Positions 5,353 through 38,529 of a DNA stretch of 48,291 nucleotides are shown piece by piece. Under the pieces are notes generated by a model. The model saw nothing but the letters and a program-made list of their open reading frames with translations, made no database searches and was not told the origin of the DNA. The stretch lies in the NCBI GenBank assembly GCA_945860945.1, contig CAMASG010000011.1, forward strand, positions 1 to 48,291. The letters are read 5' to 3'. How positions within the stretch are numbered: position 1 is the stretch's first letter; each line of letters opens with the position of its first letter. The translations under genes were made by a program, and so were the position numbers. The DNA is from Akkermansia muciniphila. GTDB lineage: Bacteria > Verrucomicrobiota > Verrucomicrobiia > Limisphaerales > SIAT01.

Positions 5353-8019
5353 ATGAAAATCCGTAGCCTCCTCGTCGCCGCCCTGCTTTGCATCGCGGCA
5401 TTCACCCTCACCGCCGCGCCGGCCCTTGAATTGAAGCCCGGCGACCACGTCGCCGTCATCGGCAACGCTCTCGCCGACCGCATGCAGCATCACGGCTGGT
5501 TCGAGACGCTCACGCTCGCCAAGTTCCCGAAGCACGACCTCGTCTTCCGCAACCTCGCCGCCTCGGGCGATGAGGTGGCCGGCTTCACCGACAAGCCGGA
5601 CGCCAAGGTGCGGATGCGCTCGGACAACTTCGGCACCTCCGACCAGTGGCTCACGAAGGTGCAAGCGGATGTCGTTCTGGCGTTCTTCGGATTCAATGAA
5701 GCGTTCGCCGGCGACGCCGGTCTCGACAAGTTCAAGACCGACCTCGCCGCGTTCATCAAGCACACGCGCGCGCAGAACTACAGCGGCAAAGGCAACCCGC
5801 GCCTCGTGCTCTTCTCGCCGATCGCCGTCGAGCCGAGCAACGACTCGAACTGGCCGAAGGCCGAGCCGCTCAACGCAAATCTCCAGAAATACGCCGCCGC
5901 CATCGCCGAAATGGCCAAGGCGAATAGCGTCCCCTTCGTGGATCTCTATTACCCTTCGCTCGAGCTCTACTCGCAGGCTGCCAAGCAAAAGCAGGTGCTC
6001 ACTTTCAACGCCATCCACCTCACCGAGGCGGGCGACAAAGCACTCGCGCCGCAGATTTTCCGCGCGCTCTTCAGCGACACGGCGCCCGCCGGCAACCTCG
6101 AGAAACTCCGCACCGCCGTGCTCGACAAGAATTTGGAATGGCACCGCCGCTATCGCACCGTGGACGGTTACAACGTGTACGGCGGCCGCTCGAAGCTCTC
6201 CTTCCCCGTCAGCAAAGAAAAAGGCGCAGCGAAGATCACGAACTACGACGTGATGCAGCAGGAGATGTCGCAGCGCGACGTGATGTCCGCCAACCGCGAC
6301 AAGCGTGTCTGGGCGGTCGCCAAAGGGGGCGAAGTGAAAGTGGACGACTCGAACCTGCCGCCGGTGTCGTTGCTGGAATCGAACAGGGAAGTGAAGCCGT
6401 TCCTTAGCGGCGAGGAAACCATCAAGCACATCACCGTGCCGAAGGGTCTCAAAGTGACGCTGTTCGCCGATGAGAAGCAGTTCCCCGAGCTCGTCAGCCC
6501 TGTGCAGATGGGGTTCGATACGAAGGGCCGCCTCTGGGTTGCCGCGTGGCCGAGCTATCCCGAACTGCGCCCGACCGACAAGGTCTTCGACAAGCTGCTC
6601 ATCATCGAAGACACGAATGGCGACGGCAAAGCGGACAAGTGCACGACGTTCCTCGACGGGCTGAATTGCCCGACCGGTTTCCAGTTCTACAAGGACGGCG
6701 TGATCGTGGTGCAGGCGCCGGATGTGTGGTTCGTGCGCGACACGGACGGCGACGGCAAGGCCGACTGGAAAGAGCGCATGGTGATGGGCCTCGACTCCGC
6801 TGACTCGCACCACACCGCGAACGCGATGGCGTATGAACCGGGCGGCGCGACCTACTTGAGCGACGGTGTTTTCCACCGCACGCAGATCGAGACCGCTGCC
6901 GGCCCCATCCGCAACAGCGACGGCTGCATCTATCGTTGGGAGCCGCTCACCTCCAAGCTCGAGCGCTACGTCCCGTACGGTTTCGCCAACCCGCACGGCA
7001 AGGTGTTCGACCGCTGGGGCAACGACATCATCACCGACGCCACCGGCAACGCGAACTACTTCGGCCCCGCCTTCAGCGGAATGATTGATGCCCCGGCCAA
7101 GCACGGTGGGATGAAGCAATTCTGGAACCGACCGTCGCGCCCCTGCCCCGGCACGGCCATGATGTCCAGTCGCCATTTCCCCGCCGAGTTTCAGGAAAAT
7201 TTCCTCAACCTGAACGTCATCGGCTTCCAAGGCATCTTCCGCGTGAAGATGTCCGAGGACGGCGCCGGTCTGAAAGGCGAGACCCTCGAAGACCTCGTGA
7301 AGGGCGACAACAACATGATCCCGAACTTCCGCCCCGCCGCCGCCGACGTCGCGCCGGACGGCTCGATTTACTTCTTGGACTGGGCCAAGGAACTCATCGG
7401 CCACATGCAGCACCACATCCGCGACCCCAACCGCGACAAGCAGCACGGCCGCATCTACCGCATCACCGCCGAGGGCCGCCCGTTGCTCAAGCCGGTGAAG
7501 ATTGACGGCGAGACGATTGAGAACCTGCTCGCGGCGCTCACGACGCCCGAGGGCAACGTCCGCATCCGCGCGAAGATTGAGCTGAGCAAGCACGACTCCG
7601 CCAAGGTCATCGCCGCGACTAAGAAATGGGTCGCCGACCTCGACAAAACGGACAAGGAATACCAGCACCACCTCACCGAAGCACTCTGGGTTCATCAATG
7701 GCACAACGTCGTGGACGAAGCGTTCCTCAAGCAGATGCTCCGCTCGCCCGATCACCGCGCCCGCGCCGCCGCCACACGCGTCCTCTGCTACTGGCGCGAC
7801 CGCGTGAAAGATCCGCTCACGCTGCTCTCCGCGCAGGCGAAGGACGACCACTCGCGCGTCCGCCTCGAGGCTATCCGCGCCTGCTCCTTCTTCCGCACGA
7901 GCAAAGCCGCCGAGGTCGCCCTCGAAGCGCTCGAGAAAGAGCCGAACCCCGACAAGCCCGACTACTACATCAAGTACTGCCTCGACGAGACGATGAAGCA
8001 GCTCAGCCGTTTCAAGTGA
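5353..8019 (+). CDS. PVC-type membrane-bound dehydrogenase-like protein (SGNH + beta-propeller + HEAT)
   Basis: An 888-residue exported protein with a signal peptide at about residues 1-22. Residues 28-240 look like an SGNH/GDSL hydrolase-like domain (GDHVAVIGNALADRM at 30-44, FFGFNEAF near 111, and a late His in NAIHLTEAG at 222). Residues 360-695 form a glucose/sorbosone dehydrogenase-like beta-propeller (KGLKVTLFADE, GFDTKGRLWVAAWP) with two Asp-rich calcium-type loops, DTNGDGKAD (420) and DTDGDGKAD (463). The rest, to residue 888, is helical HEAT-like. This order is typical of the PVC-type dehydrogenase family (TIGR02604-like), expanded in Verrucomicrobia and Planctomycetes and thought to oxidise sugars or polyols in the periplasm. 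No haem motif is present, so electrons need a partner; the next gene is an obvious candidate. The substrate is unknown. Confidence 0.85.
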   Translation: MKIRSLLVAALLCIAAFTLTAAPALELKPGDHVAVIGNALADRMQHHGWFETLTLAKFPKHDLVFRNLAASGDEVAGFTDKPDAKVRMRSDNFGTSDQWLTKVQADVVLAFFGFNEAFAGDAGLDKFKTDLAAFIKHTRAQNYSGKGNPRLVLFSPIAVEPSNDSNWPKAEPLNANLQKYAAAIAEMAKANSVPFVDLYYPSLELYSQAAKQKQVLTFNAIHLTEAGDKALAPQIFRALFSDTAPAGNLEKLRTAVLDKNLEWHRRYRTVDGYNVYGGRSKLSFPVSKEKGAAKITNYDVMQQEMSQRDVMSANRDKRVWAVAKGGEVKVDDSNLPPVSLLESNREVKPFLSGEETIKHITVPKGLKVTLFADEKQFPELVSPVQMGFDTKGRLWVAAWPSYPELRPTDKVFDKLLIIEDTNGDGKADKCTTFLDGLNCPTGFQFYKDGVIVVQAPDVWFVRDTDGDGKADWKERMVMGLDSADSHHTANAMAYEPGGATYLSDGVFHRTQIETAAGPIRNSDGCIYRWEPLTSKLERYVPYGFANPHGKVFDRWGNDIITDATGNANYFGPAFSGMIDAPAKHGGMKQFWNRPSRPCPGTAMMSSRHFPAEFQENFLNLNVIGFQGIFRVKMSEDGAGLKGETLEDLVKGDNNMIPNFRPAAADVAPDGSIYFLDWAKELIGHMQHHIRDPNRDKQHGRIYRITAEGRPLLKPVKIDGETIENLLAALTTPEGNVRIRAKIELSKHDSAKVIAATKKWVADLDKTDKEYQHHLTEALWVHQWHNVVDEAFLKQMLRSPDHRARAAATRVLCYWRDRVKDPLTLLSAQAKDDHSRVRLEAIRACSFFRTSKAAEVALEALEKEPNPDKPDYYIKYCLDETMKQLSRFK

Positions 8020-8042
8020 GACGCGTCGCGAAATGATTCACG

Positions 8043-8069
8043 AAGGGCCGGCGCAAGCCGGCCCTTTTT
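8043..8069 (+). terminator. Rho-independent terminator (possible attenuator between the two genes)
   Basis: AAGGGCCGGC (8043-8052), loop GCAA, GCCGGCCCTT (8057-8066), ending in five Ts at 8065-8069. It follows the dehydrogenase stop by 23 nt. The next gene starts at 8127 in the same direction, so it either has its own promoter in 8070-8126 or is expressed by partial read-through. Confidence 0.85.
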
Positions 8070-8126
8070 CGTGCGCTGACCGTATCCAATCAAACGCCAC
8101 TTTTCTTTCCACCTCATCCAACTACA

Positions 8127-9953
8127 ATGCGCCCGATGAATTTGCGTTCCGTTTTTTGTTTGGCCACTGCACTCGTCACTGTTGCCGCTGCCACAAATCT
8201 TTCCGCTCAACACCACGAAGGCCACGGCGAGAAGACCGTCACCAAAGTCGAGAAGCCGATTGTCTTCCTCGATAAAAGCCCCGCGATCGTGAAGTTCCAG
8301 ATCGGCCGCCTCTCCAACGAACAGCTCCTGCTCGTGGACCGCGAACCGTCGCATCCGAAGTTCGCGCCCGTGTACGACGCCATCCTCTCGCGCGCCAAGA
8401 TGCCCGCCAAGTTCCGCGTCGAAGCGGTCGCCGCGCTGGCGAAGATTCGCAAGACCGATGAACCGACCGAAATCCTCGCCGCACTCGGTCGACTCGACCC
8501 CGAGAAAAGCCCCGGCGTGTTGCCCGAACTCGCCGCCCTGCTCGTTGCTCAAAAATCTGAAACACTGAAGAAAAATCAGCCCTCCATCGAATCACTCGCT
8601 GGTGGCGACGGCCCAGACTCCGCGCGCCAAGCCGCTTTCGCCGCGCTCGCCGTCATCCAACCCGCAGACATCGTCTGGACCTTCGCACAAAACAAACCCG
8701 GCGCGGTCAACGTTCTGCTCAATGCTCTACCACTCGTGCCCGACGCGACGAAACGTGCCGCGTTCTTCCCGAAGATTACGACGTTGCTCAAAGCCGGCAC
8801 GGAAGCGCCCGCTTGCGCCCGCGCGCTCGCATCCATCCCGAAAGACGCGTGGCCTGCCGGAGAGCTGCAGCCGATTGCCGACGCCCTGCTCGCCGCGGCG
8901 AAAAAGACTCCGGAAGCGCAGCGCACGCAGAATGATTTTCTCGACCTTCGCCAGCTCGCTCAAAATCTCGCCACGCGTCTGCCGAAGGAAAACGGTATGG
9001 CCGTGCGCAAATCGTTCGCCGCGCTCGGCGTGAACGTGCTGCGCCTGCGCACCGTGTACGAGCAGATGTTCTTCGACAAAACGCTGTTCGTGGTCGAAGC
9101 CGGTAAGCCGATCGAATTGATTTTTGAAAACACCGATGCGATGCAACACAACTGGGTCCTCGTCGCGCCGGACGCGGTGGAAGAGATCGGCGCCGCGGCG
9201 GAAAAGATGCAGCCGACACCCGACGCGCAGGGCCGGGTGCATGTGCCCGTCTCGCCGAAGGTGCTGCAGGCGACGAAAATGTTGAACTCCGGCGACATCG
9301 TACGGTTGCGTTTCATCGCCCCGGCCAAGCCCGACAAGTATCCATACATCTGTTCCTATCCCGGCCACGCGCTGCGCATGCGCGGCACGCTGCTCGTGGT
9401 GCCGGATTTGGAACAGTATCTCGCCACGGCTGCGCCCGAAGTGCCGGAGCCGACCATCACGGAATGGAAACTCGCGGACTTCGCCGCCGATTTGTCGAAG
9501 TCGCTCAGCGTTCGCAACGCCACCAAGAGCAAAGAACTTTTCACGGCGAACTGCGCCACGTGCCATCAACTCGGCAAAGAGGGCGCGGAGTTCGGACCGA
9601 ACCTCGCCGGCGTGCTCGCGAAATACAAAGGCGACCGCAAAGCCGTGTTTGAGCAGATTCTCGATCCGTCAAAGAACATCGAGGAACGCTATCGCAACCA
9701 CAGCTTCGAGTTGGGCGATGAGCTGAGCATCTCGGGCCTGATCCTGCTTGAGGACGCGACGACGGTGACGGTGCAGACCGGCCCCAACGCGGTACAGAAG
9801 TTGAAGAAGAGCGAAATCAAAAGCCGCCGTTCCTCGACTGTGTCGCTGATGCCGGCGGGGTTGCTGAACATTTTCTCGAAGGAACAAATTCTCGACCTGC
9901 TCGGCTACATCGAGTCTGGCAGCAGCGCGCAGCCAAAGTCCTCCAAAAAGTAA
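8127..9953 (+). CDS. Exported HEAT / azurin-like cupredoxin / cytochrome c fusion protein
   Basis: A 608-residue periplasmic electron carrier. The signal peptide covers about residues 1-27. Residues 55-290 are helical HEAT-like. Residues 300-425 are an azurin-type cupredoxin: MQHNWVL gives the first copper His (H341), and CSYPGHALRM gives C409, H414 and M418 with exactly the C-x4-H-x3-M spacing of azurin. Residues 462-596 are a cytochrome c with CATCH (476-480) and a likely axial Met in SLMPAGLL (M575). A copper centre and a haem in one chain imply internal electron transfer. The gene follows the dehydrogenase-like gene in the same direction, so it probably accepts electrons from it (inference). 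M1 and M4 are both possible starts; the outermost is used. Confidence 0.88.
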   Translation: MRPMNLRSVFCLATALVTVAAATNLSAQHHEGHGEKTVTKVEKPIVFLDKSPAIVKFQIGRLSNEQLLLVDREPSHPKFAPVYDAILSRAKMPAKFRVEAVAALAKIRKTDEPTEILAALGRLDPEKSPGVLPELAALLVAQKSETLKKNQPSIESLAGGDGPDSARQAAFAALAVIQPADIVWTFAQNKPGAVNVLLNALPLVPDATKRAAFFPKITTLLKAGTEAPACARALASIPKDAWPAGELQPIADALLAAAKKTPEAQRTQNDFLDLRQLAQNLATRLPKENGMAVRKSFAALGVNVLRLRTVYEQMFFDKTLFVVEAGKPIELIFENTDAMQHNWVLVAPDAVEEIGAAAEKMQPTPDAQGRVHVPVSPKVLQATKMLNSGDIVRLRFIAPAKPDKYPYICSYPGHALRMRGTLLVVPDLEQYLATAAPEVPEPTITEWKLADFAADLSKSLSVRNATKSKELFTANCATCHQLGKEGAEFGPNLAGVLAKYKGDRKAVFEQILDPSKNIEERYRNHSFELGDELSISGLILLEDATTVTVQTGPNAVQKLKKSEIKSRRSSTVSLMPAGLLNIFSKEQILDLLGYIESGSSAQPKSSKK

Positions 9954-38500: not shown

Positions 38501-38529
38501 AAAAAGGCCGCGCATTGCGCGGCCTTTTT
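38501..38529. terminator. Bidirectional terminator
   Basis: A 13-bp perfect stem, AAAAAGGCCGCGC (38501-38513) with GCGCGGCCTTTTT (38517-38529), loop ATT. Flanked by A on one side and T on the other, it serves both the FloA operon and the convergent DUF1549/DUF1553 gene. Confidence 0.93.

Follow-up and report, generated by a model that had tools for sequence, protein, structure and literature searches.

A propeller protein and a copper-haem protein of Akkermansia muciniphila as the probable split form of a single-chain periplasmic redox enzyme

Proteins of the PVC-type haem-binding CxxCH kind join a TIGR02604 propeller, HEAT repeats and a TIGR02603 haem c domain, and in the open-licence full-text literature we found just one published activity for the DUF7133/TIGR02604 family. 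This is Lac161_ORF7 from a Verrucomicrobium, a Chthoniobacter-type protein with TIGR02604, HEAT and cytochrome parts; the purified protein liberated glucose from lactose (Km 1.8 mM; PMC5342196). Two other systems invite comparison: the planctomycete-specific PSCyt1-3, multidomain periplasmic cytochromes of PVC bacteria that have carbohydrate-binding domains and are described as being of unknown function (PMC5615132), and the periplasmic 3-keto-glycoside pathway of LacABC and a DUF1080 hydrolase, in which a sugar is oxidised and then cleaved (PMC9007349). Here we analyse two neighbouring genes, P1 and P2 (Table 1), in a window of 48,291 nucleotides, the whole of the stretch studied, from Akkermansia muciniphila (GTDB lineage Bacteria; Verrucomicrobiota; Verrucomicrobiia; Limisphaerales; SIAT01; assembly GCA_945860945.1, contig CAMASG010000011.1, positions 1 to 48,291, forward strand). 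P1 passes the TIGR02604 cut-off and contains HEAT repeats, and the tail of P2 passes that of TIGR02603. Unlike the PVC-type CxxCH proteins, however, P1 has no haem, a copper domain stands between HEAT repeats and haem, an SGNH domain precedes the propeller, and the parts are encoded by two genes. From its domain composition, the pair is a variant of this known dehydrogenase/cytochrome kind. The likeness to Lac161_ORF7 holds at the family level, and azurin is not reported in the available part of that source. PSCyt1-3 are built from other domain families, and copper goes unmentioned in the available part of PMC5615132; the 3-keto-glycoside pathway is linked to the pair only by genome context. 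We found no account of such a propeller-azurin or azurin-haem protein in the open-licence full-text literature, in agreement with a first-pass annotation of the window, according to which the unit appeared undescribed.

That annotation took P1 for a PVC-type dehydrogenase-like protein without its own haem, and the domain profiles agree. P1 matches DUF7133 (E 7e-61, 207.1 bits against a cut-off of 27) and TIGR02604 (205.8 against 122.2 bits), a search of its sequence for CxxCH found none, and the haem implied by the family's NCBI name sits on P2. Its N-terminus is signal-like when read by eye, and a PDB sequence search with P1 gave no match up to E 0.1. The SGNH domain (PF13472, E 7e-14, 53.2 bits against a Pfam cut-off of 32.9) is an addition to the earlier description. 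We placed its triad by eye from the known motif, and on these presumed positions Ser39 is replaced by Ala, Gly or Thr in 74 of 80 alignment rows (Ser kept in 6), Asp219 by Asn in 75 (Asp kept in 5), and the His is present in 35. With such counts an active-esterase role was dropped. Since the triad is lost and other residues of the conserved blocks (G113, N115, E116 and D73) are invariant in the same 80 rows, the domain probably serves binding rather than hydrolysis.

The azurin-type copper site and the cytochrome c attributed to P2 were both recovered. The plastocyanin/azurin profile PF00127 matches at E 2e-7, the nearest solved relatives of the domain are auracyanin A (E 1e-12) and auracyanin B (E 4e-12), and its model compares with auracyanin at TMt 0.87-0.88, as a cupredoxin fold. 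P2 does not reach the azurin equivalog cut-off (30.5 against 105.1 bits). The TIGR02603 match reaches 100.6 bits against a cut-off of 68.15, with a single CxxCH starting at residue 476. As the complete His-Cys-His-Met copper site is kept in 60/60 readable rows, and the CxxCH together with a conserved candidate axial Met in 17/17 P2-type rows, these domain calls are not due to chance; M575 is probably the axial haem ligand. The structure model of P2 (predicted local distance difference test, pLDDT, 82) contains auracyanin-like and Kustd1711-like haem domains. HEAT-like regions, claimed for both proteins, are present in P1 as a HEAT_2 match (E 2e-12) and in P2 as the alpha-solenoid of the model, with no Pfam HEAT match in P2. 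P2 shares its copper site with auracyanin and azurin and differs from them as a multidomain chain; a survey of azurins left out sequences longer than 200 amino acids, so chains like P2 fell outside its scope (PMC8779525). Around residue 222 (window 8780-8800), the P2 of the window is without some 30-35 helical-repeat residues found in other P2 proteins. His-rich C-terminal tails (at least three His in the last 15 residues) occur in 8 of the 17 P2-type chains and in 8 of the 44 fused ones and possibly serve copper loading; unlike these relatives, the P2 of the window carries HHEGHGE after its signal peptide.

In many relatives P1 and the copper domain of P2 form one chain. A search of named genomes, from which the best 80 of 561 candidates were kept and 79 loci classified, gave 44 loci with a single SGNH-propeller-HEAT-azurin chain, 16 with a separate P2 near P1, and 19 with P1 alone locally (loci and genomes are cited below by our L and G numbers). 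The culturable Verrucomicrobium sp. BvORR034 is among the carriers of the fused chain. For 17 of these 19 the genome was searched (the frames of the other two, L129 and L141, run off contig ends), and a P2-like match was present elsewhere in 15 at E<=1e-25 (in 14 even at E<=1e-100) but absent, at the former threshold, from G294 and G303. The co-occurrence survey suggested with the first-pass annotation was made in a class-wide sample of 286 genomes, which overlaps with the named loci (for example, L120 is G150 and L117 is G033). P1 orthologues (at least 800 bits) were found in 44 genomes and P2 matches (E<=1e-30) in 44, with both in 42. Most of these co-occurrences are fusions, counted for both by construction, and the split form is the fairer test: each of the 9 genomes in which a split-type P2 reaches E<=1e-100 also holds an unfused P1 orthologue, adjacent in 5 and on a different contig in 4. 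We also modelled a fused chain, that of L127 rather than P1 of the window; the model begins after the SGNH domain, and stretches of its propeller have a pLDDT below 60. Its helical solenoid spans residues ~487-932, reaching the copper domain, and the split point of the window falls between helices of this continuous solenoid. These comparisons indicate that P1 and P2 are a real, conserved functional unit, better described as a modular, elsewhere single-chain redox enzyme in split form than as a two-gene operon.

The earlier proposal of a relay to copper and then haem is not supported as to haem being a constant part: none of the 44 azurin fusions at the named loci has a haem domain. Azurin is present in 42 of the P1-orthologue genomes of the class sample, and the two without it, G100 and G253, have CxxCH on P1 itself, so that all 44 have a redox outlet. 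These two genomes hold three such P1-orthologue chains, with CxxCH after the HEAT repeats and no azurin (L228, L229, L230); Pfam confirms cytochrome c in both G100 chains, and the G253 chain is known by its CxxCH motif alone. With haem missing from all 44 of those azurin fusions, copper would be the constant outlet of the subfamily and haem optional. Haem looks to have replaced copper in a few lineages, as if the electron outlet were interchangeable. Chains holding everything (SGNH, propeller, HEAT, azurin and haem) were seen in 10/10 regions, which had been chosen beforehand for long frames covering azurin and haem, and G002, a genus-mate of the window, has two tandem all-in-one propeller-HEAT-azurin-haem genes. 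Six long chains of about 1700-1900 amino acids (L220, L221, L223, L224, L225 and L067:11304-16439) combine ThuA, NedA-like galactose-binding, SGNH, propeller, HEAT/helical, azurin and haem c domains. The copper and haem fusions are the best sequence evidence we found that the propeller passes electrons on. An electron sink exists, in the form of two COX1-family genes.

The propeller of P1 resembles, in fold and in part of its pocket, the soluble/aldose sugar dehydrogenases that use pyrroloquinoline quinone (PQQ; GSDH family), from which P1 differs in having its own copper/haem outlet. Profile comparison of the P1 propeller with GSDH proteins gave a probability of 95% and E 3e-8. The best structural match of the L127 propeller is the apo PQQ sugar dehydrogenase 3a9g (Z 19.2, root-mean-square deviation 3.3 over 285 residues); Foldseek on the fused model returned cupredoxins and unrelated solenoids, and the propeller was matched only in a second structural comparison. 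H487, N546 and R660 align with the conserved His, Asn and Arg of GSDH, which, like another Arg and a Gln of GSDH, belong to the catalytic and PQQ site. H487, N546 and R660 are invariant in 80/80 rows, as are D484, H486, P547, H548, G549, H684, H687 and H688.

The substrate of P1 would most likely be a sugar or a glycoside, for which the evidence, from accompanying domains and genome content, is indirect. ThuA and NedA-like galactose-binding domains were found on 6/6 of the long all-in-one chains scanned, the ThuA match of L223 being just under the cut-off. A motif search found a discoidin-like motif in 32/44 fusions, confirmed by Pfam in L123, the one scanned. In the 2.6-Mb source genome (G000) there are 21 DUF7133 matches, 17 to 3-keto-disaccharide hydrolase (DUF1080 family), 12 to ThuA and 4 to GSDH.

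Starting from these domains, the conserved ligands, the fusions, the co-occurrence and the propeller homology, we think it probable, if by no means assured, that P1 and P2 are halves of one periplasmic quinoprotein-like sugar dehydrogenase made as a single chain in relatives. The propeller of P1 would oxidise a sugar or glycoside, using a pocket homologous with the one in PQQ sugar dehydrogenases, and the non-hydrolysing SGNH domain would probably assist in substrate binding or in forming the site. By stacking, the HEAT repeats of the two proteins would rebuild the solenoid that is continuous in fused relatives, and this docking would carry the P2 copper site up to the propeller. The type-1 copper would then take the electrons and pass them, in the window, to the fused haem c, after which they would enter the respiratory chain. 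PQQ is an uncertain candidate for the cofactor.

Several results count against this reading, in the propeller as well as in the genetics of the pair. The sole assay found for a TIGR02604-HEAT-haem protein, that of Lac161_ORF7, describes a beta-galactosidase and not a dehydrogenase (PMC5342196). Lactonase (gluconolactonase), DFPase and NHL propellers match the L127 propeller from Z ~17.8, some 1.5 Z or less below the best match. P1 also differs from GSDH proteins in lacking a Pfam GSDH match (PF07995; none up to E 0.1) and in its changed pocket: A545, the sole named position without 80/80 invariance, and H548 stand where GSDH has Arg and Gln. PQQ supply was judged from pqqC alone, which is above cut-off in 0/44 P1-orthologue genomes against 19/286 overall; the source genome has no match, and the P1 carrier G193 one of just 33.6 bits. 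The reported glucose release, the near-equal propeller matches and the missing pqqC would suit a glycoside-cleaving or lactonase-like hydrolase, with the copper and haem domains as sensors, structural parts or copper carriers. We consider such a hydrolase unlikely, because azurin and haem c swap at the same end of the chain with their metal ligands all kept, which fits an electron outlet. Moreover, cleavage of 3-ketolactose also gives glucose (PMC9007349), so the result with Lac161_ORF7 might be read as that of an oxidase, and its glucose release is possibly oxidation to the 3-keto sugar followed by cleavage. The missing pqqC weighs against a PQQ supply of the cell's own, not against import, and PQQ scavenging by PqqU has been reported, with five Verrucomicrobia included (PMC12124388).

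On the genetic side, the co-occurrence counts are not independent, as many genomes are related and the samples overlap. Between P1 and P2 of the window stands a terminator-like hairpin, AAGGGCCGGC-GCAA-GCCGGCCCTT and then Ts (z -3.9 for the whole gap), one of just three in the window that combine a perfect stem, at least 8 bp long, with a T-run. The standard terminator scan missed it, probably since the stem takes up the first Ts. This hairpin, the unlinked genes in the closest relatives of the window P1, the different contigs in 4 of the 9 split class genomes and the 21 DUF7133 matches of the genome would agree with separate electron-transfer proteins that form no complex, P2 being a general periplasmic copper-haem shuttle for many dehydrogenases. 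To this, too, we give a low probability, as the same two sequences are fused in 44 of 79 named loci and the split point lies inside a solenoid that is continuous in the fused model. Far less probable still, to the point of being nearly discounted, is that the convergent gene P3 feeds electrons into P2. P3 had been described as an oxidoreductase exported by twin-arginine translocation (Tat) and as part of the relay; the description stands (GFO/IDH/MocA family, with a twin-arginine-like RRQFL near the N-terminus, read by eye) and the membership does not. Its convergent position, exported look and best NCBIfam match, the BT_2158-type glycoside 3-dehydrogenase family, would favour a partnership, but it is only distantly like that family (395.6 bits against an equivalog cut-off of 750). 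No P3 homologue at E 1e-6 lies near the pair in 20 related loci, and distant ones (23-29% identity) occur in just 3/79 named loci, for which reason P3 was dropped as a partner of P1 and P2. The family is NAD(P)-type, which makes P3 an unlikely donor to copper; its convergent orientation also speaks against a partnership, and a hairpin separates it from P2. Judged by gene neighbourhood, P3 is outside the conserved unit.

The history of the pair was traced in a propeller tree of the window, three outgroup rows and 78 of the 79 named loci, a short fragment being left out; it was built by a quick method and has long outgroup branches. In this tree, 33 of the 35 separate rows and one fused row form a group of 34 (SH-aLRT 100); its separate rows are 17 split ones, including the window, and 16 of the 18 unlinked ones. 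All remaining rows, like the outgroup, are fused, apart from L129 and L141 with their frames cut off at contig ends. The tree thus favours an ancestral fusion that split once, the genes moving apart later. The five rows nearest to the window P1 are all unlinked, and adjacency is not the rule among close kin. Given a strong hairpin with a T-run in the gap, P1 and P2 are probably transcribed apart in the window. Of the two-gene module first proposed, the belonging together has held up through the fusions; a simple operon was dropped for the window because of the hairpin, and the unlinked closest relatives speak against it as well. Among the 16 loci where P1 and P2 are neighbours, 10 have gaps below 100 bases or short overlaps, and no hairpin of at least 7 bp was seen in these 10 (overlapping pairs leave no gap to scan); L095 and L120 also have a gap hairpin, and in L093, L096, L105 and L112 the gap is long or the genes overlap by 250 bases.

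The surroundings of the pair vary. No wider conserved gene cluster was found around it in the 20 related loci and the window, and the largest shared minus-strand family among them consists of shadow open reading frames antisense to P1/P2. An 860-aa open frame antisense to P1 (5269-7851, minus strand) belongs to this family; it resembles the antisense frames of relatives and probably arises from codon bias without being a gene. A third strong hairpin of terminator type lies at 38529 of the window on the minus strand.

Table 1. Coordinates of the pair, its domains and its neighbours (window positions)
Feature	Position	Strand	Basis or detail
P1, exported SGNH - six-bladed-type propeller (DUF7133/TIGR02604) - HEAT protein, 888 aa, no haem motif	5353..8019	+	domain profiles
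SGNH/GDSL-type domain of P1	5413..6072	+	PF13472, residues 48-229
Propeller of P1, PQQ-sugar-dehydrogenase/SMP-30/NHL fold class	6412..7467	+	profile and structure matches
HEAT repeats, P1 C-terminus	7468..8016	+	Pfam; solenoid continues into P2-equivalent part in fused relatives
Intrinsic-terminator-like hairpin between P1 and P2	8043..8069	+	perfect 10-bp stem, GCAA loop, T-run
P2, exported helical-repeat - cupredoxin - cytochrome c protein, 608 aa	8127..9953	+	domain profiles, structure model
HEAT-like alpha-solenoid of P2, residues ~52-300	8280..9026	+	structure model
Auracyanin/azurin-type type-1 copper domain of P2	9033..9404	+	PF00127, ligands H341, C409, H414, M418
TIGR02603 haem c domain of P2	9516..9917	+	CATCH residues 476-480 (9552-9566)
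Hairpin between convergent P2 and P3	9995..10022	.	12-bp stem, T-run on minus strand
P3, Tat-type GFO/IDH/MocA oxidoreductase, Rossmann, 475 aa	10065..11492	-	domain profiles

For the family as a whole we put forward a tentative and, at present, rather doubtful generalisation: the DUF7133/TIGR02604 propellers of Verrucomicrobiota and Planctomycetota may be modular periplasmic glycoside oxidases (perhaps at C3), in which the sugar is held by a degenerate SGNH domain and lectin-like modules and oxidised by the propeller, its electrons being carried off by a plug-in outlet that is blue copper, haem c or the two in series, copper first. If this were true, the pair of the window would be enzyme and outlet split into two genes, and in the reported beta-galactosidase activity lactose would be oxidised and would then lose glucose, instead of undergoing ordinary hydrolysis. 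In these bacteria DUF7133/TIGR02604 proteins are numerous, as the source genome illustrates, and a copper/haem outlet gives a directly testable colour change. The fusions also suggest a connection with the periplasmic 3-keto-sugar pathway that can be tested, and another way to understand a puzzling beta-galactosidase.

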